From: Sanguibacter keddieii DSM 10542
GTDB lineage: Bacteria > Actinomycetota > Actinomycetes > Actinomycetales > Cellulomonadaceae
Length of the DNA stretch: 64,000 bases
Reading direction: 5' to 3'
Assembly (NCBI RefSeq): GCF_000024925.1
Contig: NC_013521.1
Location: 2,666,001 to 2,730,000 of the forward strand
The position numbers were made by a program, and so were the translations under genes. Below the pieces are notes generated by a model, which was not told the DNA's origin, did not search any database, and saw nothing but the letters and a program-made list of their open reading frames with translations. Numbering within the stretch: position 1 is the stretch's first letter; each line of letters begins with the position of its first letter. Below are positions 4,442 to 20,373 of this stretch, piece after piece.

Positions 4442-6229
4442 ATGTCGACGGAAACTCCGAAACCTCGCGGAACGCATGGTCTCGGCCGTGCTGTGCCATC
4501 GGGCTCAGAGTCGGTCGCGTCCCCGGGACCTGGCCTCGTGGCACGCGCGCCGCGCGACGATCGGGCGGCGGCCGATGACCGAGCGGCGCCTGCTGAGCGA
4601 ACGGCGAGAGCGACGAACGCGATGGCGTCGCCCGCCGATCGCTCGGGTGACATGACTCGTATGGATGTCATGACCCTCGCGCAGGCGAACACCCACCTGG
4701 GTGATCTCTTCGATGCGGTGGTGGCGGGGTTCGCCGAGGTGGCTGCTGCGCAGGCGCGGGCGGCTGAGCGTGTCGAGGAGCTGCGGCAGTGGTCTTCGGT
4801 GGTCGCTGAGGTGGCCGCCCGGCACCGCGGTAAGAAGTGTGCCGACGGGATAGACCTTGGTGACGCGGAGCGGTCTGTGGTTGCTGAGCTGGGGTGCGCG
4901 CTGCGCCTGCCCGAACGTTCGGCGGGCGCCCTGGTGTCGGAGTCGAAGGCACTGGTCCACGAGCACCCCGCCACGATGGCTGCGCTGCGTGAGGGGCAGG
5001 TGTCCTACCGGCACGCGCAGGCGGTCCTGGACGCGACCGTGGGCCTGGACGAACCTTCGGTCCTCGAGCTGGACGCGTTGCTGGCCCTCAAGGCGCAGAC
5101 GTTGACGGTCTCTCGCCTCAAGACCGTCGCCCGGCGTGAGCGTGAGCGCCGCGACTCACGTCCGCTGGTCGAGCGACACCAGGTCGCAGCCCAAGACCGT
5201 CACGTCGAGCTGCACCCGTGCGGGGACGGCATGGCGTGGCTGCACCATCTGCTGCCCGCGGTCCAGGCCACCGCGATCTTCCACCGCCTGACCGACATCG
5301 CGACGGCGGTCCAAGGCCCCGACGAGCCCCGCACCCTGGCCCAACTGCGCGCTGACGCGAGCGTCGACCTGATGCTCGACGACGACGCACGGACCGCCCT
5401 GACTGCCGCCCCAGTCACGAGCGCGGACGACAGCAGCGACGACCGCACCGTCGAGGCCGACACCGCTGCGCAATACACCGCGGGCAACCCCCGTCAGTCG
5501 ATCGCGGGCATCGCCGACCGTGTCTCCCTGGGTGGCATCAAGCCCCAGGTCGCCGTCACCATCCCCGTCATGACCCTGCTCGGTCACTCCGACGAGCCCG
5601 GAGACCTCGCCGGCCACGGACCCATCGACGCTCACACCGCCCGCCGGCTCGCCGCCCAGGCACCCAGCTTCCTGAGGATCCTGACCCACCCCGAGACCGG
5701 CACCGTTCTCTCCGTAGGCCGCGACCGCTACGCAGTCCCCGCAGACCTCAAGTCCTGGCTGCGCATCCGCGACGAGACCTGCCGATTCCCCGGATGCTCC
5801 CGCCGAGCACAACGCTGCGACATCGACCACGTGAAGGACTGGGCCCACGGAGGAACCACAGACCACCACAACCTCATCCACCTCTGCCGCCACCACCACC
5901 GCCTCAAGCACACCACCTGGACCGTCCGCACCGAACCAGTACACCGACCACCGACCCAGCCACCGGACCGCGGCTCAGGCGGTCGCGACCCAGACCACGA
6001 CGACCAGAACGACGACAACCACGAAACCCACGAAACCCACGACCACGAAACCCACGAGCACCTAGCCCCCACGGCCGACGTCGTGCGCTGGACCGCGCCC
6101 ACCGGGCGCGACTACCTCGACCACGCCGCACAGGAGCTCGCTCGTCGACACGCGGTCGACTCAGGGGCCCGTCACACCACACATGTCGATCGGGGTGAGT
6201 CTCAGTTCCCTGACGACCCACCGTTCTGA
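4442..6229 (+). CDS. DUF222/13E12-repeat family protein with C-terminal HNH endonuclease domain
   Basis: A member of a multicopy family common in high-GC Gram-positives whose function is unknown. The N-terminal 80 residues are low complexity. The DUF222 helical region runs from about residue 75 (LAQANTHLGDLF) to about 420. The HNH nuclease motif near residue 440-485 is complete: two cysteine pairs' worth of spacing in CRFPGCSRRAQRCDIDHV, then WAHGGTTDHHNLIHLCRHHH. The tail is Asp/His/Thr-rich with repeated HETHE units. The ATG at 4442 gives 595 residues. A start at the later methionine cluster near 4650 is also plausible. The gene stands alone, without partners, and its role (mobile, repair or defence) is not established. 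Confidence 0.85.
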   Translation: MSTETPKPRGTHGLGRAVPSGSESVASPGPGLVARAPRDDRAAADDRAAPAERTARATNAMASPADRSGDMTRMDVMTLAQANTHLGDLFDAVVAGFAEVAAAQARAAERVEELRQWSSVVAEVAARHRGKKCADGIDLGDAERSVVAELGCALRLPERSAGALVSESKALVHEHPATMAALREGQVSYRHAQAVLDATVGLDEPSVLELDALLALKAQTLTVSRLKTVARRERERRDSRPLVERHQVAAQDRHVELHPCGDGMAWLHHLLPAVQATAIFHRLTDIATAVQGPDEPRTLAQLRADASVDLMLDDDARTALTAAPVTSADDSSDDRTVEADTAAQYTAGNPRQSIAGIADRVSLGGIKPQVAVTIPVMTLLGHSDEPGDLAGHGPIDAHTARRLAAQAPSFLRILTHPETGTVLSVGRDRYAVPADLKSWLRIRDETCRFPGCSRRAQRCDIDHVKDWAHGGTTDHHNLIHLCRHHHRLKHTTWTVRTEPVHRPPTQPPDRGSGGRDPDHDDQNDDNHETHETHDHETHEHLAPTADVVRWTAPTGRDYLDHAAQELARRHAVDSGARHTTHVDRGESQFPDDPPF

Positions 6230-8751: not shown

Positions 8752-9034
8752 CGCACCGCCGAGCGTCGATGTCAACTCCGCCGTCCCGCGCCGAGGCCAG
8801 CGCTAGGGCAAGATCTGAGGCCGCGGATGCCAACGGCTGCTCCGTACCCGTGGGCGCGTAGCTTCTCGCGCCGTCGCCGGAGCACGGAGCGCGCGCAAAC
8901 TTCAGCCGACGACCTCACGGATGACGACCACGAGCGCGTCTAGGCTCTGCCCTGGTAGAAGAGCCGAGGTCCGCCGTCGGATGTCGGCTCGCACGCTTCC
9001 CGGTGCAGCTACCCAGGGGACGGAAGGACAACCG

Positions 9035-11275
9035 GTGTCGACTCACCACCCGGATCTGCTGGACGAGCAGAGGTATCTCGATCACGCGCACGACCTGCTG
9101 GCTCGTGGCCATGCTGACTCCGAGGCGACGATCGCGGGCTTTGTGCCGAACGACAAGGCGAGCGCCGCTGCACTACGCCGCGCCCTGGACATCATCCGGG
9201 ACTCGAAGGGCACCGGCACGCTGATCTTCGGCCGGGCAGACACCCCCGAGGATCGTCTGTACATCGGCCGGCAGAGGGTCTACGACGAAGGACGAGACCT
9301 CAAGGTCATCAGCTGGCACGCTCCCGCAGCCGCGCCGTTCTACACAGCGACCGTCGACGATCCACGAGGGCTCGTCCTGAAACGGACCATCATCGAGGAA
9401 GAACGGCGTGTCGTCCGTCTGATCGACGAGATCGTGGCCGCCGCGAGCTCTGATGCTCCCGACCTCACACCGTCGACTTTCGGGGACGCTCTGCTCGCCG
9501 AGCTGGAACGCTCTCGCGACGGGGCGATGCGTGACGTGATCGCGACCATCCAGGCCGAGCAGTACCGGATCATCCGCAGCGCGGCCGAGGGCACCGTGGT
9601 GGTCCAGGGCGGTCCGGGGACGGGCAAGACCGTCGTCGGCCTCCACCGCGCCGCATGGCTGGCGTACAACGTCGAGAGCCTTCGTCGCACGGGGATGCTC
9701 GTCGTCGCCCCCACCCCGAACCTCCTCACGTACATCAGCGCCGTGCTGCCTCTGCTCGGTGTCAGCGACGTCATGCAGATCCACCTCCCTGCCCTCTACG
9801 GAGGCAGCGCCGTGGTGGGCCGGGTCGAGCGGTGGGAGAGCGACCGCACCAAGGGTGACGCATCGATGGCCGAGGTGCTCCGACGAGCTCTGTCCGACCG
9901 TGTCGACCGAGACCCTGGGGACGTCACCTTCACGGTCGGCGCCGACCGGATCACGATCCCTGCCGCATCGATGCGGGACGTGGTGGCCGACGCGTTGTCC
10001 CGCGACCTCGCGCACAACGACGTCCGTGACGTGCTCCGCCAGACCCTGGCCCAGGTCGCGCACTCGAGCTACCTCGCACACCAGAGAGAGATGGGACGAC
10101 CTGCCGTCGCGACGGCATCGACGATCCGCCGGCTCAACACCATCACCAACCTGCTCGACCGCGTCTGGCCGCGGTTCACCCCCGAGGAGCTGCTCCGTGG
10201 GCTCTACGGCACCCAGTCGTGGTTGGTCTCGGCGTGCGACGGGGTACTCACCGTTGACCAGCGCGCCGCGCTGTACCGCGCTCCGGAGAACGCCCTCAGC
10301 GAGGAACGTTGGTCGGTCGCTGACATCTTCTGCCTCGACGAGCTCTCGCACCTCCTCGACGGTCCGCCAGTCTCCTACGGGCACATCGTGGTCGACGAGG
10401 CACAGGACCTCTCCCCGATGCAGGCACGATCACTCAGCCGGAGGTGCCCGACAGGCTCCTTCACCCTCCTCGGAGACCTGGCGCAAGCCACCGGTCCTTG
10501 GGTCCGCGACACGTGGGACGAGCTCCTGCTGCACGTCGCACCACCGAGCCACATCGTCGAGGAGCTGTCGATCGGCTACAGAGTGCCTGCCACGACGCTC
10601 GACCTCGCAGCCCGTCAGCTGGGCTACATCGCCCCAGGCCTCACGGCACCTCGTTCTATCAGGCCCGGCAGGAACGACCCCTCGGTGAGACACGCACCCG
10701 CCGAGGTGCTCGGCTCCCGGCTGGCCGGTCTCGTCGGCTCCCTCCTGGCTGACTCGTTGAGCACGGCGGTGGTCGTCGACGACACCGACTTCGACCGGTG
10801 GGACGCCGAGCTCACGACGCTCGATGTGCCCCACGGAGACGGTCGGGCGGGCGACTTCTCGAGCGCCTGCACCCTCGTCCCGGCATCGCTGGCCAAAGGG
10901 CTCGAGTTCGACGCAGTCGTCCTGGTCGAACCGGCGAAGATCGTCGAGTCGTCTCCGCACGGCCGTCGGGTCTTGTACGTCGCCATGACACGGTGCACGC
11001 ACGAGCTCCATGTCCTGCACACCCTGCCGCTACCCTCAGGGTTCTCGGACCTGATCGACCACCCTGCCGACGACGATGCGACGTCCGTCGTGGATGGTCC
11101 CGGCTGGGACCCCGTGCCCGACGCCGCTCCGCCTGCACCAGCCCCGGACTCCGACGACGCGCTGCGCTCCAGGGTGATGTCCGACCTGGGTCGCCTCTCC
11201 CCCCACGACCTCACGCTGGTCGCCGCGCTCGTCGAACGGCTCGCTACCCCCACCGAAAGACTGGATCACCCGTGA
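9035..11275 (+). CDS. HelD-like superfamily 1 helicase/ATPase
   Basis: UvrD/Rep-type ATPase resembling HelD, the factor that removes RNA polymerase from DNA. The GTG at 9035 is chosen for its GGAAGGA ribosome site seven bases upstream and because the HelD homology begins at once (DLLDEQRYLDHAHDLL). It gives 746 residues. The HelD N-terminal block is recognisable (LIFGRADTPEDRLYIGR, WHAPAAAPFYTA). Motor motifs: Walker A GGPGTGKT (about 192), Walker B HIVVDEAQDLSPMQ (about 450), LLGDLAQAT, the late AKGLEFDAVVLVEP and YVAMTRCTHELHVL. It ends in a four-base GTGA overlap with the giant helicase-nuclease gene. It is either a polymerase-recycling HelD paralogue or the partner of a defence module; the coupling favours the latter. 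Confidence 0.82.
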   Translation: MSTHHPDLLDEQRYLDHAHDLLARGHADSEATIAGFVPNDKASAAALRRALDIIRDSKGTGTLIFGRADTPEDRLYIGRQRVYDEGRDLKVISWHAPAAAPFYTATVDDPRGLVLKRTIIEEERRVVRLIDEIVAAASSDAPDLTPSTFGDALLAELERSRDGAMRDVIATIQAEQYRIIRSAAEGTVVVQGGPGTGKTVVGLHRAAWLAYNVESLRRTGMLVVAPTPNLLTYISAVLPLLGVSDVMQIHLPALYGGSAVVGRVERWESDRTKGDASMAEVLRRALSDRVDRDPGDVTFTVGADRITIPAASMRDVVADALSRDLAHNDVRDVLRQTLAQVAHSSYLAHQREMGRPAVATASTIRRLNTITNLLDRVWPRFTPEELLRGLYGTQSWLVSACDGVLTVDQRAALYRAPENALSEERWSVADIFCLDELSHLLDGPPVSYGHIVVDEAQDLSPMQARSLSRRCPTGSFTLLGDLAQATGPWVRDTWDELLLHVAPPSHIVEELSIGYRVPATTLDLAARQLGYIAPGLTAPRSIRPGRNDPSVRHAPAEVLGSRLAGLVGSLLADSLSTAVVVDDTDFDRWDAELTTLDVPHGDGRAGDFSSACTLVPASLAKGLEFDAVVLVEPAKIVESSPHGRRVLYVAMTRCTHELHVLHTLPLPSGFSDLIDHPADDDATSVVDGPGWDPVPDAAPPAPAPDSDDALRSRVMSDLGRLSPHDLTLVAALVERLATPTERLDHP

Positions 11276-14200
11276 CTGCGACGACCGACCTCTCCACGAC
11301 CGCCGGCGAACGGCTCGCGAAGCAGCTGGACAGGTGGCGCAGGGAACTGATCACCCTCGACCGACGCCAGAGGCTGCTCTACTTCAAGCACACGAAGAGC
11401 GCGTCGCTCGAGATCGAGATGACGGACCCGAGCCACCTCACCGATCTCGTGAGCGAAGGTCCGGTCCTCATCCGTCCGCGACCAGAGCAGAGCACGGAGC
11501 TGGTCGGGCACGCGGACGACAGCGCCGCCGGACGCAACGACGACAGCTCGTTGCACGTGGTGGGGAAGACCGAGTCCGAGCTGCGCTCGAGCCTGCGTCG
11601 TCTCGACCAGGTGTCCCAGCAGACCTTCGCCGACCGAGGGACCTGGACGCTCTACCTCACCGTCGGGATCCTCGAGTGGGAGGACCCTCAGGACCGGAAG
11701 CCCGTCCTCAGCCCTCTCCTGCTCCTGCCTGTCGTCCTCGGCCGGAACGGAGCAGACCAGCCGTACACAGTCCGGCGCACCCACGACGAGGCCCTGGTGA
11801 ACCCTGTGCTCCGCTTCAAGCTCGAGGAAGACTTCGGGGTGGCCCTCCCCGAGGTCGACCCCGACGACTTCGAGGCCGACGACCTCCTTCTCGACATCCA
11901 GAAGGTCGTCGCACAGCACGGCTGGACCGTCCACGACCGTTCGGTCCTGACGTCCTTCTCGTTCCACAAGGAGGCCATCTACAAGGACCTTCAGGAGAAC
12001 GAGCAAGCCATCGGAGAGAGCGGGCTGGTGCAGGTTCTCGCCCTGGGCCCCGACGCCCCCTCGGCAGGCACCTTCGGCTTCGCGCCCCCGGACGACGCCA
12101 CACTGGACGACTCGACTCCGCCCGAGACCCTCCACAACATCCTCGACGCAGACGGTAGCCAGCGGAAGTGCATCATCGCTGCACTCGACGGCAAGAGCTT
12201 CGTGATGGACGGACCTCCGGGGACCGGTAAGAGCCAGACCATCGCGAACATGATCGCGGAGCTCATGGCGAACGGACGGAGCGTCCTCTTCGTGAGCGAG
12301 AAGATCGCCGCGCTCGACGTCGTGCGCAACCGGCTGGCACAGGTGTCCCTGGACTCGTTCGTCCTCGAGCTGCACAGTGCCGCAACCACGCGCAAGCACT
12401 TCTCCCAGGTGCTGGGGACAGCACTCCAGAACCGCGTCAAGGCGCCGCCTGCCCTGTCCGCAGCGGACCTCAACGCGCTCGCGACCACGCGCGGCCGGCT
12501 GTCTGGGTACGCGGCGGCCATGAACGAGCTGCGGCCGACCTTCAACCGCAGCATCCACTGGGCTCTCGGACAGATCTCCCCGCTCGACCGCCTGGCTCAC
12601 CTCCGCGCGCCCGCGGACCGCCGCTGGAGCCAGCTGTCCGACAAGCGCCTCGCGGAGATCGAAGAGCACGCAGGTGCTCTCGGCCGTTCCTGGGACCCCG
12701 TGACACTCGGCGACCGATTCATGTGGCGTGACGTCCGCGTCGCCTCCGGCACGGCGGACCCGGCACGTCTGCGCCGAGAGGTCGTCGGCGCCCACGACGC
12801 GGCTGGGCAGCTCGCCTCGCTCTGCGAGGCGGTCGACCACGACCTCCAGGTCAGGCTGGGTCGCACCTCCGAGGCCGCCGGGATCAGGGGCTCGCTGCTG
12901 TCGGTGCTCGAGGCGCGCCCCGCCTCGGCCGATCAAGCCCACCTCACCGCTCGAGACCTCGACGGCGTCTCGCGACGCGCGACGGTACTCCGAGAAGCCT
13001 GCTCCGAGCACCGAGCCGTGATCCAGGAACTTCTCAGCACGATCGGAACCGGCTGGATCCAGCTCGAGCCCGACGGGCTCGAGCAGCTGGCGGGGATCAC
13101 GACCCCGCACGACCTCTGGACCGTCCCCTCTGACCTCACAGCATCCGCGCTCGCCGAGGCGGTCGACATCGCAGAGAACCTGCCTCTCGTCATCGCTGAG
13201 GTTCTCCAGGACGGGCGTCGCCTCGCTGCTGCCTTCGGAGTAGAGCCGGCGTCCCTCTCTCTGAGGCGGACCGAAGACCTGGCTGCCCTCGCCGATCTCA
13301 CCATGGAGTCGGCACTCCCGGAGAGCAACTGGCTCAACCCGGTGCTCGCGCACGCGATCGAAGAGTCTCAGCGCGTCCTCACGGGCCTCGTCAGCATCGT
13401 CGTCGCCAACCGTGACCGGATGGCGTCGACGTTCACCCCCGAAGTCCTCGAGCTCGACCTCGTCGGGCTCAAGACACGTTTCGCGGGACCGAACACCGGC
13501 TTCGGTCGCTTCTCGAGCCAGGCCCGCGCTGACCGCAAGACACTCCGCGGGGTCTCTGTCCGCGGAAAGGTGGACAAGGTCCTCCTCTCCTCCCTCGACG
13601 ACGCAGTCGCGTGGCAGCAGTCAGCGTCTCAGCTCGATCGGGGCGAAGGCGAGCACGGCGCACGTCTCGGTTCCTACTACCAGCGGACCGACACGGACTT
13701 CGAACGTCTCGGCAGGGCCCTGGGCGTCGCGCAGCGCGCGGTCCAGCTGGCCGGCGACGACCTGGACCCGACCGTCCTTGGGCGCCAGCTGAGCACCGAG
13801 CGGGTCGCCGACCCATCGATCCCGTCGACCGCTCGCCGGCTCCGGTCGAGCCAGTCGTCCTTCGCGGAAGGCGCTCGGCGAGCCTTCGGCGACGCGGCCG
13901 CGTCCCGCCTCTCGGAGCTCCCGCTGACCGCTGTGGCCGACCTGCTCGTCGACCTCACGTCCCGGCTCCGACCACGGCTCACCCTCCTCCAGGAGATCGC
14001 CGCCGTCGCAGGCGCCAACCTGACGGTCGCATCTGCCTGCACCGCGCTCGAGCGCGCCGGAGCGGCCTCCGACGCGGAGGCAGAGGTGCTCAACTCCTAT
14101 GCGGACGACCGGCTCGACCTCGGGGCCGCTTACACCGGGCTAGACACCGACTGGGACGCCCTAGAGTCGGCGCTCGAGTGGGCCGAGAAGGTCCGTGCGC

Positions 14201-16743
14201 TCGTCGGTACGAGCGTGTCTCCGGCGAGCGCAGATCGATTCTTCTCCCCGACCCTGGCATCGACCGATCTCGCGCCGACACTGACCCGGTGGGTCACGGC
14301 GCGTGACCGGTTGGTCTCGTCATTCGCGCCATCGCGCGGGACCGACCTTCTCGCCGACCTCGACTCAGACCTCGACGAAGCGTCGATGCTGCTCGACGAC
14401 ATGGTCAAGACCTCGACGACAGAGATCGACACGTGGCTCCGGTTCACCGAGTCGGTCGACTGGCTCGAGAACAACGAGCTCCGCGAGCTGGTGGACGAGA
14501 TGGCGCGAGAGAAGACCCCGTCGGACCAGGTCGCCCTCGTGGTCCGCAGGGCCGTGATCGAGGCCTGGGTCGACGCGGTCTCCGCCGAGGACCGTCGACT
14601 CAGCGACTACCGCCCCGACGACCGGGACGCCCTGGTCAGTCGTTTCAGAGAGCTGGACGAGCGTCTGGTGAGCCAGAGCAACGGTGCCGTGATCGCGGCA
14701 TGCAACCAACGCCGCCCCGTGTCGGACTCGAGCCGAGGCGCCCAGGTCATCAGGCGCCAGGCGGAGCTGAAGTCGCGGCACAAGGCGATCCGACAGGTGC
14801 TCACCGAGGCGGGGGACGTCGCGATCGCGCTCAAACCGTGCTTCATGATGAGCCCGCTCGCAGTCTCGCAGTACCTGCCGTCGGACATGCGGTTCGACGT
14901 CGTCATCTTCGACGAGGCGTCCCAGGTGCTCCCGTCCGACGCCATCAACTGCATCTACCGCGCTCGACAGCTCATCGTCGCCGGTGACCAGAAGCAGCTG
15001 CCCCCGACCAGCTTCTTCGCGTCCGCCGCGTCCGAGGAGGAGGACGACGACGAAGCCCTCGCCGACTTCAGCTCTGTGCTGGACCTGTGCAAGGGGTCGG
15101 GTGGTCTCCCGTCCCTCCCCCTGTCGTGGCACTACCGGAGCGACCACGAGGACCTCATCGCCTTCTCCAACTACCGCTTCTACCGTGGGGAGCTGTTCAC
15201 CTTCCCGAGCGCCCAGCGGACCGGCGCCGACGTCGGCGTGGAGTCGTTCGTCGTCGACGGCACCTACCGTCGCGGGACGACCCGCGACAACCCCGTGGAG
15301 GCCGCCGCGATCGCGGACCGCGTCATCCTCCACGCGACCCAGCACCCGGAGCTGTCGGTCGGGGTTGTGACCTTCTCCGGGGCACAAGAGGACGCGATCC
15401 TCGCTGAGCTCGAACGACGCTCCGTCGACCACCCCGAGGTCTCCAGGCTCCTCAGCTCTCACGACAGGCTCGACGGCTTCTTCGTCAAGAGCCTTGAGAA
15501 CGTCCAGGGAGACGAACGAGACATCATCCTGTTCTCGATCGGCTATGGCCCGGACGAGGCCGGGAAGATGACGAACAACTTCGGCCCGCTCAACAAAGAA
15601 GGTGGCTGGAAACGGCTCAACGTGGCGATCACCCGTGCGCGCAGGCGGGTCGAGGTCATCAGCTCGTTCCGGCCTGGGGCTATCCAGTCGTCGAACGACA
15701 GCGTCGTCGCGCTCGCGCGCTACCTAGACTTCGCTGACCGCGGCGTCCAGGCCCTCGCACTCGAGTCGGCAGAGAGCCTCGGCGAACCGGAGAGTCCTTT
15801 CGAGGAAGACGTGATCCGCGAGATCCAGGCCATGGGATACGACGTCGTCCCCCAGGTCGGCACCGCCGGCTACCGCATCGACATCGGAGTGGTCCACCCG
15901 ACGGAACCTGGCCGTTTCATCCTCGCCGTAGAGTGCGACGGTGCTGCGTACCACTCGTCGAAGGTCGCACGTGACCGTGATCGCCTCCGCGAAGGTGTGC
16001 TCACCCGGCTCGGCTGGACCGTCTTCCGCATCTGGGGCCTCAGCTGGGCACGAGACCGACGGACCCAGGTCGAGCGGCTCCGGCGCGCGCTCGCCGAGGC
16101 CACCGACGCGCGCGAGGCGCCTCGTCCCGTGCTGCTGGCGCGCGACGTCGTCCAGGTCGAGATCGAGACCGTGGACCTCTCGGCTCCGCCCGCCTGGGCG
16201 GTCGCCTACGAGCCGGCCGACGTGTGGCCGAGCTACGAGCACGACCAGTGGCACGAGCCGGAGGCCAGGCCCGCTCTGCGGCGAGCCACCGAGGACTTCC
16301 TGAGCGTCGAGGCTCCGGTCCACCGCGACCTGCTCGACGCGGCGCTGCGTCAGGTGATGGACATCGGCCGCATCGGCGCACGGATCCGCAGCAACATCGA
16401 CGCGGCACTCGACGCGGCGCGGGTCGACGGTGCGCGTGTCTCCACCGACGGCGCGGGCTTCATCCGGGTCTCCGGGGCCGAGCTGCCCTCTCCCCGTGTG
16501 CCGGGTGCCGTAGGTCAGGCCCGCAAGATCCGGCACGTGCCTCCCGAGGAGCTCGACCTGGCAGTGGTGGGCCTCGTGCAGGACGCGATCGCCATCGAGG
16601 GTGACGACCTGAGACGAGCTGTCTCGCAGCTCTTCGGCTGGAACCTCACGGGCGAGGCTGTGTCCGCGATCGAGAGCGCCACCTCGCGAGTGGTCCACAG
16701 GGGAGATGTCCTCCTCGCGGGCCGTTCGTACCGAAAGCCATGA
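11272..16743 (+). CDS. DUF4011-type giant protein: SF1 helicase plus Vsr/MTES_1575-like nuclease
   Basis: 1823 residues from a GTG overlapping the HelD-like stop. Architecture: a DUF4011-like N-terminus (LAKQLDRWRRELITLDRRQR, residues 13-32); a split superfamily 1 helicase with Walker A GPPGTGKS at 314-321 and, about 900 residues later, Walker B VVIFDEASQV (aspartate near 1214); then GDQKQLPP, LSWHYRSDHEDLI, ENVQGDERDIILFS and LNVAITRARRR (about 1449). Next is a PD-(D/E)XK-type nuclease with YRIDIGVV and AVECDGAAYHSS (about 1530-1560), like the MTES_1575/Vsr family. A DUF3320-like end carries EAPVHRDLLDAALRQVMDIGR. The 750-residue insert is helical and unassigned. Single proteins of this architecture have been reported as phage-defence genes (Hhe type in defence catalogues). 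An anti-phage role here is inferred. Confidence 0.82.
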   Translation: MTATTDLSTTAGERLAKQLDRWRRELITLDRRQRLLYFKHTKSASLEIEMTDPSHLTDLVSEGPVLIRPRPEQSTELVGHADDSAAGRNDDSSLHVVGKTESELRSSLRRLDQVSQQTFADRGTWTLYLTVGILEWEDPQDRKPVLSPLLLLPVVLGRNGADQPYTVRRTHDEALVNPVLRFKLEEDFGVALPEVDPDDFEADDLLLDIQKVVAQHGWTVHDRSVLTSFSFHKEAIYKDLQENEQAIGESGLVQVLALGPDAPSAGTFGFAPPDDATLDDSTPPETLHNILDADGSQRKCIIAALDGKSFVMDGPPGTGKSQTIANMIAELMANGRSVLFVSEKIAALDVVRNRLAQVSLDSFVLELHSAATTRKHFSQVLGTALQNRVKAPPALSAADLNALATTRGRLSGYAAAMNELRPTFNRSIHWALGQISPLDRLAHLRAPADRRWSQLSDKRLAEIEEHAGALGRSWDPVTLGDRFMWRDVRVASGTADPARLRREVVGAHDAAGQLASLCEAVDHDLQVRLGRTSEAAGIRGSLLSVLEARPASADQAHLTARDLDGVSRRATVLREACSEHRAVIQELLSTIGTGWIQLEPDGLEQLAGITTPHDLWTVPSDLTASALAEAVDIAENLPLVIAEVLQDGRRLAAAFGVEPASLSLRRTEDLAALADLTMESALPESNWLNPVLAHAIEESQRVLTGLVSIVVANRDRMASTFTPEVLELDLVGLKTRFAGPNTGFGRFSSQARADRKTLRGVSVRGKVDKVLLSSLDDAVAWQQSASQLDRGEGEHGARLGSYYQRTDTDFERLGRALGVAQRAVQLAGDDLDPTVLGRQLSTERVADPSIPSTARRLRSSQSSFAEGARRAFGDAAASRLSELPLTAVADLLVDLTSRLRPRLTLLQEIAAVAGANLTVASACTALERAGAASDAEAEVLNSYADDRLDLGAAYTGLDTDWDALESALEWAEKVRALVGTSVSPASADRFFSPTLASTDLAPTLTRWVTARDRLVSSFAPSRGTDLLADLDSDLDEASMLLDDMVKTSTTEIDTWLRFTESVDWLENNELRELVDEMAREKTPSDQVALVVRRAVIEAWVDAVSAEDRRLSDYRPDDRDALVSRFRELDERLVSQSNGAVIAACNQRRPVSDSSRGAQVIRRQAELKSRHKAIRQVLTEAGDVAIALKPCFMMSPLAVSQYLPSDMRFDVVIFDEASQVLPSDAINCIYRARQLIVAGDQKQLPPTSFFASAASEEEDDDEALADFSSVLDLCKGSGGLPSLPLSWHYRSDHEDLIAFSNYRFYRGELFTFPSAQRTGADVGVESFVVDGTYRRGTTRDNPVEAAAIADRVILHATQHPELSVGVVTFSGAQEDAILAELERRSVDHPEVSRLLSSHDRLDGFFVKSLENVQGDERDIILFSIGYGPDEAGKMTNNFGPLNKEGGWKRLNVAITRARRRVEVISSFRPGAIQSSNDSVVALARYLDFADRGVQALALESAESLGEPESPFEEDVIREIQAMGYDVVPQVGTAGYRIDIGVVHPTEPGRFILAVECDGAAYHSSKVARDRDRLREGVLTRLGWTVFRIWGLSWARDRRTQVERLRRALAEATDAREAPRPVLLARDVVQVEIETVDLSAPPAWAVAYEPADVWPSYEHDQWHEPEARPALRRATEDFLSVEAPVHRDLLDAALRQVMDIGRIGARIRSNIDAALDAARVDGARVSTDGAGFIRVSGAELPSPRVPGAVGQARKIRHVPPEELDLAVVGLVQDAIAIEGDDLRRAVSQLFGWNLTGEAVSAIESATSRVVHRGDVLLAGRSYRKP

Positions 16744-16799
16744 GGCTCAGCGTGCATGTCCGCACGAGTCCTCGTCCCGGCGAGCGGCCCAGCGTTGGA

Positions 16800-16805
16800 T
16801 AGTCT
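16800..16805 (+). promoter_or_regulatory. -10 element (TAGTCT) for a leaderless cofD transcript
   Basis: TAGTCT ends seven bases before the cofD ATG at 16813, which places transcription start at or next to the ATG. No Shine-Dalgarno sequence is present. Leaderless mRNAs are common in actinobacteria. The -35 region is not recognisable. Confidence 0.4.
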
Positions 16806-16812
16806 CCACCCC

Positions 16813-17871: not shown

Positions 17872-17942
17872 GCGGACATCGAGCTCGTCGGGATGGGCTG
17901 AGCGGACCCCGAGCTCGTCGGGATGGGCTGAACGGACATCGG
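17853..17942. repeat. Three tandem 30-base repeats spanning the cofD stop codon
   Basis: Units at 17853-17882, 17883-17912 and 17913-17942 share GCTCGTCGGGATGGGCTGA with a few changes at the end. The first unit contains the last codons and stop of cofD, so each copy repeats the codons L-V-G-M-G and a stop. This looks like duplication of the gene end. Confidence 0.88.
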
Positions 17943-17975
17943 GGCTATCCGTCCCTCAAGACCATCCGTCGGGGC

Positions 17976-18004
17976 TTATATCGAGAGGATATTAGCGATA
18001 GCCT
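17976..18004 (+). promoter_or_regulatory. Promoter and operator candidate of satD
   Basis: An AT-rich patch holds a -35-like TTATAT (17976-17981), a 17-base spacer and a -10 TAGCCT (17999-18004) six bases before the satD ATG. A leaderless start is therefore likely. Between the two elements lies an inverted repeat ATATC/GATAT (17978-17982 and 17988-17992), well placed for a repressor. Confidence 0.45.
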
Positions 18005-18010
18005 GATCTC

Positions 18011-18652
18011 ATGACGACGCAGACCGGCCTGATCGCCGACATCGTGAAGTCCCGCGACCTCACCGACAGGTCCGCAGCACAGGCGGCGATCTTCGACGCC
18101 TTCGCGCAGGCCGAGACGCTGGACGCCCCGGTCAGCCCCGTGTGGTCGACGGTCGGTGACGAGTTCCAGCTGGTGCTCCCCACCGTCGGGGCCGCGGTCC
18201 GGACGACCGCGGTCGTCCGGCTCGCACTGCCCGACGGCGTCGACCTCAGGTTCGGGCTCGGCCTGGGCGAGACCTGGGACGTGGACTCCCGGGGCGCCTC
18301 CCCGATCCAGGACGGCCCCGGCTGGTGGGCCGCCCGACGCGCGATCGACGAGGCCCACCGTCGCCAGGACACCGGGAGCCCGTACCTGAGGTCGTGGTTC
18401 GTCGACGGCACCGAGCCTCCCGCGCCTACGGTCGAGCGCATGGTCGACGCGCACCTGCTCCTGCGAGACATGACCGTCTCGGCGATGAACCCCCGCCAAC
18501 GGAGGATCGCCCTGGGGACGCTGATGGGCCGGACCCAGGCAGAGCTCGCGGCGGCGGAGGGCATCACCCAGAGCGCGGTGTCCCAGAACCTCGCCCGGTC
18601 CGGGGCCGGGGCGCTCGTCGCCAGCATCGACCTCCTCCGGGACCTCTCGTGA
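18011..18652 (+). CDS. SatD family protein with C-terminal helix-turn-helix
   Basis: 213 residues. The N-terminal two thirds match the SatD family pattern (GLIADIVKSRDL at residues 6-17, VGDEFQLVLP near 52, GLGLGETWDVD, and the WWAARRAIDEA helix). The C-terminus from about 155 (NPRQRRIALGTLMGRTQAELAAAEGITQSAVSQNL) is a classical helix-turn-helix. SatD was named from a streptococcal acid-response locus; its biochemical role is unknown. The start region suggests leaderless translation and possible autoregulation through the nearby inverted repeat. The stop codon overlaps the GTG of the following membrane protein gene (GTGA), a conserved style of pairing for this family. Confidence 0.78.
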   Translation: MTTQTGLIADIVKSRDLTDRSAAQAAIFDAFAQAETLDAPVSPVWSTVGDEFQLVLPTVGAAVRTTAVVRLALPDGVDLRFGLGLGETWDVDSRGASPIQDGPGWWAARRAIDEAHRRQDTGSPYLRSWFVDGTEPPAPTVERMVDAHLLLRDMTVSAMNPRQRRIALGTLMGRTQAELAAAEGITQSAVSQNLARSGAGALVASIDLLRDLS

Positions 18653-19740
18653 TCGTCAGCGTGGCACTGCTCATGATCGGGGTCGCCGACATCGTCCGGA
18701 CCGCACTGGTCCGGACTGCACCTGTACGGAGTGCAGCCGTACGGAGTGCAGCCGCTCGACCAGCAGACGCGCCTGGCCGTCGACCTGCCGTCGCCTCGGC
18801 CGCGGCCGCGGTGTCAGCGGTCGTCCTGGCAGTCGTGGCGAGCGCCGCTCTCGGCCTCGCAGTCGCGTGGTCTCTCGCCTGCCTCGCGACGACGCTCGCA
18901 TGGGTCGCCCTCGTCCCCGTGGGACGACCCGCAGGGACAGGCCAGGACGGTACACGCGACGCACCTCCTCTGTGGCCGGCTCTCGCCCTCCTCGCGCTGC
19001 TGGTGACGACCGTGGCCTTCGACCGCACGTCGGTCGCCCTCCCTGCCGGCCTGGACGACGTCCTCGGAGAGTCGCCGCGCGCGCTCCTGCACGGCACCTC
19101 GGCGGAGACGGTGCTGGCAGTCCTGGCGGTCGTCGTGGTCATGACCCAGACCGCCAACCTCGTCGTCCGTGCCGCGCTCGGCCGCGACAGGACAGGGCTC
19201 GGACGGCCGGGGGTCAGCACGTCATCGTCGTCGACAGCCGCGGAGACCCCGGCCAGCCCTGCCCGGTGGTCTGTCCGCATAGGCGGTCGGACGATCGGGG
19301 CGGTCCAGCGAGACCCCTCCGCGACCTCTCCGACGTCCGCGACCAGGCCGGTCGACGTGCCCGCAGAGCGGACATCTGGTTCCAGGGATTCCAGGCACGC
19401 CGAACAATCTGAGTACCCCGAGCACCCCGAGCCGGCTGACAGCCCAGCCCCTGGCATACCGGCAACCGGTGCGCGCGCCGAGATCGCGCCCACGTCCGCG
19501 ATGCGCGGCGGCCGTCACATCGGGCCCATCGAGAGGATCCTCGTCCTCGCGGCCGTCCTGGCGGGTGCGTACCCCGTGGTCGCCGGGCTCCTGGCGGCGA
19601 AGGGCATCGTGCGGTTCCCGGAGATCGCCGAGGACAGCGCGACCGGCAGCAAGGCCGAGGAGTTCCTCGTCGGCAGCATGACCAGCTGGATGATCGCCGC
19701 CGCGGGAGCCGCGTACGTCGCGCTCGTCGCCGCCGGCTGA
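18649..19740 (+). CDS. Integral membrane protein coupled to SatD
   Basis: 363 residues from the GTG overlapping the satD stop. Hydrophobic segments lie near residues 3-18, 47-70, 75-92, 108-125, 150-170, 295-315 and 340-363. A long Pro/Ser/Thr-rich, probably cytoplasmic linker (about 180-290) separates them. The last third (HIGPIERILVLAAVLAGAYPVVAGLLAAKGIVRFPEI) resembles the membrane segment usually encoded beside satD. The first loop holds four five-residue units (VRTAL, VRTAP, VRSAA, VRSAA) encoded by a 15-base DNA repeat at 18694-18753. No enzymatic motif is seen. It is presumed to act with SatD; function unknown. Confidence 0.7.
   Translation: MIVSVALLMIGVADIVRTALVRTAPVRSAAVRSAAARPADAPGRRPAVASAAAAVSAVVLAVVASAALGLAVAWSLACLATTLAWVALVPVGRPAGTGQDGTRDAPPLWPALALLALLVTTVAFDRTSVALPAGLDDVLGESPRALLHGTSAETVLAVLAVVVVMTQTANLVVRAALGRDRTGLGRPGVSTSSSSTAAETPASPARWSVRIGGRTIGAVQRDPSATSPTSATRPVDVPAERTSGSRDSRHAEQSEYPEHPEPADSPAPGIPATGARAEIAPTSAMRGGRHIGPIERILVLAAVLAGAYPVVAGLLAAKGIVRFPEIAEDSATGSKAEEFLVGSMTSWMIAAAGAAYVALVAAG
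18694..18753. repeat. Four in-frame 15-base tandem repeats
   Basis: Units of the form GTACGGAGTGCAGCC or GTCCGGACTGCACCT lie inside the SatD-partner membrane protein and encode V-R-(T/S)-A-x. Confidence 0.8.
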
Positions 19741-19908
19741 CCGGTCGCCGAAGCGCACCGTCGGATGCGACCTGACCCGTCCGACATCAGCCCTGGGCTG
19801 ATCATCGCCTGATATCAGCCAGGGACTTCTCCGAGCAGCCCGTGGTCCGAGGCGACGTGGGTCGAGAGCAGATGGCCTGGGGCGTGGCCGGCTGCGCCCG
19901 ACACTCCG

Positions 19909-19983
19909 CGACCCGACGATCTGCCGTGCGACGCTCTACGACCCGACCGTCTACGACCCGACCATCTGCCGTGCGGCGCTCTG
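19909..19983. repeat. 30-base repeat, duplicated around a half copy, at the merR 3' end
   Basis: Two 30-base copies (19909-19938 and 19954-19983) sharing CGACCCGAC, ATCTGCCGTGCG and CGCTCT flank a 15-base partial copy (19939-19953). The stop codon of the minus-strand merR gene (19951) lies in the array, so its last residues are repeat-encoded. The rest of the 210-base gap after 19740 shows nothing else. Confidence 0.75.
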
Positions 19984-20373
19984 CGGTGCTGAGCACTCCA
20001 CCGGGATCTCCGCCGCGCCCGCGGTCACCGCGTCGAGGTACCGCGAGATCGCGTCGCGGTTCTTGACCAGGCACTCGATCCGGCTGTCCATCCGGGCCCG
20101 CTCCTCTTCGAGGAGGGCGACGGTCGCGGGCGCCACGTCGTCGACGATGATGCTGTCAGGCCGGTTGAGGCACGGCAGGATCAGGTGGATGAGGCGTGTC
20201 GACATCCCGGCGGCCAGCAGGCCCCTGATGTGCTCGACCCGCGCCACGAGCCGCTCGTCGTAGTCGCGGTACCCGTTCGGCTCACGCGTCGGCGAGACGA
20301 GGCCCTGCTCCTCGTAGTACCGCAGCAGGCGCGGTGTGGTCCCGGTCCTGCGGGCGAGCTCACCGATACGCAC
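19951..20373 (-). CDS. MerR family transcriptional regulator
   Basis: 140 residues. The N-terminal winged helix-turn-helix is textbook MerR: MRIGELARRTGTTPRLLRYY followed by EEQGLVSPTREPNGYRDY (residues 1-38). A dimerisation coiled coil follows, then a short C-terminal effector region containing only scattered cysteines (LPCLNRP, IECLVKN, PVECSAP). The length suggests a small-ligand or redox sensor rather than a large drug-binding domain. It is divergent from an MFS exporter gene. A MerR-type dyad lies in the exporter promoter, so the exporter is the likely target (inference). Its last codons come from a tandem repeat. Confidence 0.88.
   Translation of the reverse strand: MRIGELARRTGTTPRLLRYYEEQGLVSPTREPNGYRDYDERLVARVEHIRGLLAAGMSTRLIHLILPCLNRPDSIIVDDVAPATVALLEEERARMDSRIECLVKNRDAISRYLDAVTAGAAEIPVECSAPQSAARQMVGS

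Follow-up and report, generated by a model that had tools for sequence, protein, structure and literature searches.

Hhe, a tested phage-defence gene, encodes a protein in which a DUF4011 domain, an SF1 helicase and a Vsr-type nuclease are joined; PDC-S37, by its name, is a single-protein candidate. Gabija (GajAB) comprises two genes, one for a nuclease—of OLD type, with TOPRIM—and the other for a UvrD-fold ATPase. HelD acts on RNA polymerase (RNAP): its arm goes into the RNAP secondary channel, and the M. smegmatis protein reaches the active site with its PCh-loop, residues 448-503 (PMC7749160). The DWR motif is described as 'absolutely conserved' in HelD of all classes (PMC8655204). HelR is further marked by a rifampicin-associated element upstream of its gene.

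The window analyzed here, 64,000 nt of Sanguibacter keddieii DSM 10542 (NC_013521.1, positions 2,666,001 to 2,730,000), contains two adjoining genes in which features of these proteins come together. Gene A (9035..11275, + strand) codes for a HelD-derived ATPase of 746 aa, and gene B (11272..16743, + strand) for a DUF4011-SF1 helicase-nuclease giant of 1823 aa; both start with GTG. The preliminary description had placed the genes correctly, and had noted correctly that A stops inside the start codon of B: the reading frames overlap by four bases, GTGA (11272..11275, + strand). We suggest that the two genes make up a mobile anti-phage system, with B as the effector and A as a HelD-derived recruiter, a reading to which we assign a probability of roughly 45%.

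The start of A was chosen by comparison: the protein from S. suaedae starts at the same residue as the GTG at 9035, and a longer, ATG-started reading frame is also present, from 8921. That A is of HelD type, as first proposed, holds up by profile and by structure. Among NCBIfam models it scores best with HelR_2 (347.7 bits) and HelD_MYCSM (311.9 bits), both scores being far under the cut-offs of 1100 and 1051 bits, and its closest relative of solved structure, by sequence alignment, is M. smegmatis HelD (E 7.9e-80), to which it can be aligned structurally from A residue 2 onward. Alignment, an AF2 model (mean pLDDT 81.5) and superposition on 8q3i_H reveal a split 1A domain with a clamp-opening insert, and an N-terminal arm, residues 1-60 (9035..9214, + strand), predicted to be antiparallel and helical (AF2 helices 8-34 and 41-56), whose role in A we assign by homology to HelD. 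The Walker A motif, GGPGTGKT, occupies residues 192-199 (9608..9631, + strand; alignment). The top match to the model is 8q3i_H, M. smegmatis HelD (Z 35.5, rmsd 6.6 Å, 569 residues aligned, range 2-674); over all the M. smegmatis HelD chains, Z is 26.6-35.5. Chains of UvrD type, with Z up to 29.1, are interleaved in rank with the other six full-length HelD chains (Z 24.0-28.8), but they align over 376-390 residues whereas those HelD chains align over 568-605, and A therefore keeps the whole HelD layout, with its domains differently placed.

A is no ordinary HelD, nonetheless. It keeps the arm, the clamp-opening domain and the ATPase motifs, but the PCh-loop and the DWR motif are absent, and there is something extra at the C-terminus. 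With M. smegmatis HelD as reference, the alignment of A jumps from HelD residue 446 to 521; the place where the class II loop would be is A residues 441-447 (10355..10375, + strand). This site spans 14 residues in the 13 A-pair proteins versus 74-78 in seven housekeeping HelDs. The loop is missing, too, from all 26 paralogue rows, so loop-less HelDs exist beyond A. In place of DWR, A has SWH (residues 93-95; 9311..9319, + strand; alignment), and all 13 A-pair proteins have [SG]WH, the D and the R both being lost. The site reads NWQ in all five HelDs of the Arthrobacter type discussed below, and three plasmid fusions and three paralogues also depart from DWR; it is intact in 7/7 housekeeping HelDs, in 23 of the 26 paralogues and in one plasmid protein. 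The C-terminal addition is a predicted helical hairpin, residues 707-737 (11153..11245, + strand; AF2 helices 707-719 and 723-737), preceded by a low-confidence linker, 676-703. Counted from A residue 663, and comparing complete proteins other than the plasmid fusions, A-pair proteins have a C-terminus of 63-89 residues and other DWR-less HelDs one of 98-135, as against 2-19 for housekeeping HelDs and 9-36 for the remaining DWR-bearing proteins.

With PCh-loop and DWR gone, the proposal that A is a working, polymerase-clearing HelD is not supported. Nor is A the housekeeping HelD of its host, a candidate we reject: a separate HelD, for which a check had been suggested, does exist, the genome having two HelD genes besides A, and in the tree A groups apart from the housekeeping HelDs (support 100/100). 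Judging from the lost DWR residues and from the tip of the arm, which is poorly conserved (38% mean pairwise identity versus 55% for residues 1-60 as a whole), even polymerase binding may be gone. The loss of DWR and PCh-loop would suit a different reading, in which A works off RNAP altogether, as a GajB-like NTPase of UvrD type; it would sense either DNA ends or nucleotide pools, and the nuclease would act on its licence. The highest UvrD Z-score, 29.1, exceeds those of all but one of the seven full-length HelD chains listed, and this and weak matches to GajB profiles, the best of 32.7 bits, lean the same way. The arm, the globular domain and the clamp-opening domain have no known polymerase-free use, yet they are kept, with mean pairwise identities of 55, 64 and 57% among the 13 A relatives, and we regard this reading as distinctly unlikely.

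B is organized much as the preliminary description held, with a DUF4011 N-terminus and a helicase split by an insert, both of them real by profile and by prediction. The DUF4011 domain matches a Pfam-type profile over residues 26-184 (11347..11823, + strand). The AAA-type helicase parts (profile match, ~297-356 and 1203-1464) carry the Walker A motif, GPPGTGKS, at residues 314-321 (12211..12234, + strand; profile and alignment) and the Walker B Asp-Glu at 1214-1215 (14911..14916, + strand; alignment), and are separated by the insert, residues 396-1150, ~750 in all (12457..14721, + strand; alignment and structure prediction). A nuclease ending had also been proposed. The nuclease is there, an MTES_1575 domain of Vsr type at residues 1510-1607 with D1537, E1554 and D1556 (15799..16092, + strand; profile and alignment), but it is not the end of the protein; ~215 more residues follow, among them DUF3320 at 1658-1707 (16243..16392, + strand; profile match). 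The residues singled out earlier, Walker A ~320, Asp ~1536 and Glu ~1554, are K320, D1537 and E1554, and these, together with D1214-E1215 and D1556, are invariant in 27/27 aligned proteins, the window's included.

The insert is predicted to be all-helical (mean pLDDT 91.1, pTM 0.53), and given that pTM we claim it as a helical insert and go no further. It has no clear fold match: the best, Z 7.3 with an rmsd of 14.2, is to JetABC of Wadjet, and Foldseek returns weak SMC/SbcC-like matches. Among known families, B matches PADLOC PDC-S37, a profile without a stated curated cut-off, with 1197.6 bits in three stretches, the best of which aligns residues 922-1810 with 644-1535 of the profile's 1550. 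It matches NCBIfam antiphage ProA (NF058533) with 1179 bits, under the equivalog cut-off of 1500, and NCBIfam Hhe (NF042953) with 788.5, under that of 2000. By profile score B lies close to three families already known as candidates, PDC-S37, ProA and Hhe, without reaching the curated cut-off of either ProA or Hhe.

The pair is not peculiar to this genome. The search for adjacency across genomes that had been called for finds close A and B adjoining, in the same order, on 12 named contigs, with A proteins 50-55% identical to that of the window: from Cellulomonas, Sanguibacter, Geodermatophilus, three Blastococcus, two Klenkia, Kribbella, Streptomyces sp. SID13031 and two Nocardioides. With 12 named loci of the same order besides the window, chance neighborhood of A and B can be dismissed. 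Coupling is tight in all 13 close pairs, counting the window: the genes overlap by 4-17 nt in 11, and are separated by 10 and 17 nt in the other two, lengths that depend on the start codons chosen for the analysis. In the HelD tree the A proteins of these pairs group as a single clade (support 100/100). So do the B proteins of the close pairs (SH-aLRT 99) in a B tree built by a quick method without bootstrap from the window and those 66 of 80 loci with complete frames of more than 1300 aa; L086, in which B is cut, is in the HelD tree and absent from the B tree. Distances among A proteins correlate with those among B proteins (Mantel r 0.93, unmatched in 9,999 permutations), and so the two move as a unit. 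In both trees the nearest neighbor of the window is Cellulomonas sp. APG4 and not its congener S. suaedae (A, 96/89; B, 92, a support value below the star), which suggests that A and B were transferred together.

The distribution of the pair is sparse. Close A is present in 3/150 genomes of the family, 2/394 of the class and 2/396 of the order, the window's own genome being counted each time; this amounts to five genomes altogether, and in four of them B adjoins (the exception, G563, is taken up below). Two viral-contig scans, which detect close relatives only, gave no match that would point to a phage-borne origin. Among 318 plasmid records none covers 80% of B at one place, and there are eight plasmid matches to A, 36-40% identical.

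The site itself is an insertion, as had been supposed. From the stop of the HhH-GPD gene to the start of CofD (8752..16812, by comparison with congener G019) is 8,061 bp in the window, A and B included; in G019, which has neither, it is 217 bp, and the site is empty. The congener is otherwise collinear, with part of an ABC transporter, DUF222, GST and HhH-GPD on the left and CofD on the right. The G+C content of A and B is 68-69%, versus 72-75% for HhH-GPD, CofD and an MFS gene; DUF222 has 70%. The same site shows other signs of change. The window's DUF222-HNH gene (4442-6229), 2.8 kb upstream of the pair, is 56% identical to its G019 counterpart, versus 91-94% for the adjacent GST and HhH-GPD genes, a contrast hinting that it was possibly replaced. 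Beyond CofD, a stretch of ~2.1 kb (17873-20010) with a SatD-family gene and one unassigned ORF has no match in L172, the collinear G019 contig; being a second stretch absent from G019, it raises the possibility that the site is a small hotspot. In G070, a further member of the genus, B survives as a broken remnant (L048:9413-9884; residues 1154-1312, 66-77% identity) in a stretch with no match to A, and the system may once have been present in that genome and then lost.

Scanned with Pfam, the ten ORFs that flank the pair in the window include no defence family. They look ordinary, as was first remarked, the immediate neighbors being a glycosylase-type HhH-GPD gene and CofD. These neighbors, and the clearing of stalled polymerase by HelD (PMC7749160), would favor a unit for DNA repair or for transcription-replication conflicts over a defence system. 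The sparse distribution, the empty site, the varied flanks and the company kept elsewhere all count against such a unit, which we consider very improbable. Of the 12 pair loci besides the window, eight (all but L056, L057, L068 and L084) had their large flanking genes, picked by size, scanned, and, some genes without a match notwithstanding, all eight have at least one defence-type match. Five of the eight are of DISARM type: L055 (a type IIG enzyme and a DrmD-like helicase), L058 (DrmA and DrmB), L059 and L060 (DrmMI) and L075 (DrmD). The others have DruE-like and UvrD helicases (L054), a GajB-like helicase (L061) and PDC-S02 (L074), all by profile scan; the least specific of these matches are those of UvrD type, in L061 and one of the two in L054, and PDC-S02 in L074. 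DrmD profile matches also turn up in 6 of 14 control genomes, and for this reason only strong matches count.

Two further observations concern these surroundings. The window's own genome has a near full-length DrmD match of 1294 bits (G000:C1:353112-356255), 2.3 Mb along the contig from the pair, suggesting a DISARM system elsewhere in the same cell. And a different two-gene set, an UvrD-like helicase of ~740 aa with a large protein of 1680-2153 residues (some copies cut by the locus end), recurs near B: L054:1-7637, L062:16437-25140, L066:1-7262 and L080:17023-25410. Profile matches (UvrD; DruE-like, MZB) come from the L054 copy, and the others were grouped with it by BLAST clustering.

The preliminary description had proposed a two-component system, and in one sense it was right: A and B are a conserved, coupled, horizontally moving unit. 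Of the outcomes named beforehand as refuting it, the two that genomes can show, lack of conservation of the pair and lack of another HelD, both turned out in its favor. It does not follow that B in general is tied to HelD. A scan of named genomes with B, in which the best 80 of 364 loci were kept, some cut by contig ends, found a HelD gene adjoining B in 17; the remaining 63 of these best 80, contig-end-cut loci among them, have no other HelD match beside B, and B can therefore probably work alone. Among the 40 rows in the actinobacterial part of the B tree, 13 have close A, four have the Arthrobacter type of HelD and 23 are without an adjoining HelD. The chief rival to our reading starts from these 23. 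B would be the whole defence, a single-gene system like PDC-S37, ProA or Hhe, and A an accessory that protects the host's polymerase or chromosome against B, or that tunes it. No A-type partner was seen in trans, either: in ten genomes with B and no adjoining HelD, the HelD loci checked (17/17, namely those HelD matches that have a locus) all keep DWR. In nine of the ten genomes the best match does not surpass E 3e-49, as is the case for housekeeping HelDs, and the tenth, Actinokineospora, has stronger matches. This search covered 15 of 16 loci, all but L058. What speaks for a partnership, instead, is that A is present and tightly coupled in 13/13 members of the A-pair B clade, and that DWR-less HelDs stand beside two separate B clades, an oddity if the factor could be dispensed with. 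We think the accessory role rather unlikely, and continue to prefer a two-gene system with A as recruiter.

DWR-less HelDs extend beyond the close pairs. They make up 24 of the 55 rows in the HelD tree and lie on one side of a single branch (98/94), although long-branch warnings apply to the tree, chiefly on account of the plasmid fusions, L143, L144 and L050, and its sub-groups are surer than the way they join. Those of the Arthrobacter type were found through B, beside which they lie in five loci of Arthrobacter or Pseudarthrobacter, and they form a branch with L029 and L032 (98/93). Here the HelD shows 33-35% identity; in four loci it is upstream of B, with gaps of 155-167 nt, and in one it is downstream. 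That DWR-less HelDs accompany two B clades may reflect two recruitments, or one followed by losses.

A is not strictly tied to B, for its part, since G563 has A and no close B (best match in that genome, 67.9 bits). The G563 protein nests within the A clade in a quick FastTree analysis and has GWY in the place of DWR. Downstream of its gene come an exonuclease-TerD gene, an RmuC gene and, 5.4 kb from A, a different helicase-MTES_1575 gene that is perhaps cut by the locus end; there are other defence-type genes around. Another DWR-less HelD, that of G085, was found through A and has a different helicase-MTES_1575 gene next door, in convergent orientation.

Three DWR-less paralogues (L154, L155 and L156) each occur near defence-type genes. 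That of G079 (L154:9377-18746) has in its vicinity a NERD-kinase gene (PD-T4-6/MkoA/PglW-like) and another gene that matches SspG weakly; that of L155 has a convergent helicase-MTES_1575 gene, cut by the contig end. In G264 (L156:9496-17330) the HelD lies directly 5' of a gene with HNH-repeat and HTH matches, which is followed by a Z1-domain helicase and a PD-Lambda-5_A-like gene; this is a different HelD operon. Among three DWR-bearing controls (L157-L159), L157 has a DpdF-like gene (941 bits) and the other two are without a match, but one neighboring gene was scanned per control versus seven for the three DWR-less paralogues, and with such unequal effort the figures give no rate. Streptomyces plasmids, finally, encode proteins of 1143-1185 residues in which a DWR-less HelD is followed by 400-442 residues (L145:8356-11913, L146:8371-11802 and L147:8362-11913). 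An ATPase gene, by SMC_N match in L145 and by annotation in L147, and one or two small genes precede the fusion, which is possibly another HelD-derived unit.

What might the pair do? It travels between actinobacteria and is often found among defence genes, and so it looks like a two-part defence against viruses; on these genomic grounds, phage defence is quite probable. B, an SF1 helicase with a PD-(D/E)xK nuclease of Vsr type, would move along invading DNA and cut it. A retains the arm that in HelD enters the secondary channel, and the clamp-wedging domain, but lacks the loop by which actinobacterial HelD ejects nucleic acid; it would most likely bind B through its linker and helical hairpin. 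Direct contact between A and B seems likely to us, if less surely so than defence itself; that the C-terminal hairpin is the docking site is a guess from its shape and conservation. During infection, A would sit on host polymerase that is stalled, modified or cleared on phage DNA, although whether polymerase is its target is, in our estimation, slightly worse than an even bet. A would then open the polymerase and pass the exposed DNA to B, a hand-over we hold to be doubtful.

A broader conjecture is that the whole DWR-less branch has left RNAP housekeeping and now supplies defence parts for different nuclease effectors, helicase-MTES_1575 giants in at least two clades, acting as immune transcription sensors that mark polymerase-bound phage DNA for cutting. 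This is speculative, and as a general statement would be on the unlikely side. If A has an immune role of the kind proposed, a core transcription-recycling motor would have become an immune component. We would then have a direct way into what activates DUF4011/MTES_1575 helicase-nucleases, as well as an example, open to testing, of an immune system that reads the host's transcription. Loss of DWR, loss of the PCh-loop and the C-terminal hairpin furnish simple sequence rules for finding more members.

How does the pair compare with what has been described? The top-ranked literature matches, 10 to 20 of up to 1,065, contain no report of a HelD paired with such a nuclease, weak evidence of absence given that share and given that 'HelD' is read as 'held', and neither the literature matches listed nor PMC13092281, searched by term, reports ProA as a defence gene. 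B resembles the MTES_1575 protein of Microbacterium testaceum in its SF-I helicase, its Vsr REase and its wHTH, which DUF3320 overlaps; unlike B, that protein also has HEPN and transglutaminase domains (PMC3710099). With Hhe, B shares the architecture of DUF4011, SF1 helicase and Vsr-type nuclease. A has no model match in PADLOC PDC-S37. Parts of class 1 DISARM lie near the pair in the five loci named above, but neither A nor B matches a Drm profile at E 1 or better (DrmA, DrmB, DrmD and the methylase being the DISARM parts). The pair is like Gabija in comprising two genes, for a nuclease and a UvrD-fold ATPase, and unlike it in that B has no OLD or TOPRIM match in Pfam and A scores far higher with HelD than with GajB. 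A is closest, instead, to class II HelD of M. smegmatis and to HelR, with which it shares the fold, the split 1A domain, the clamp-opening region and the Walker motifs, and from which it differs in having neither PCh-loop nor DWR, in its extra C-terminal linker and hairpin, and in forming an operon with B.
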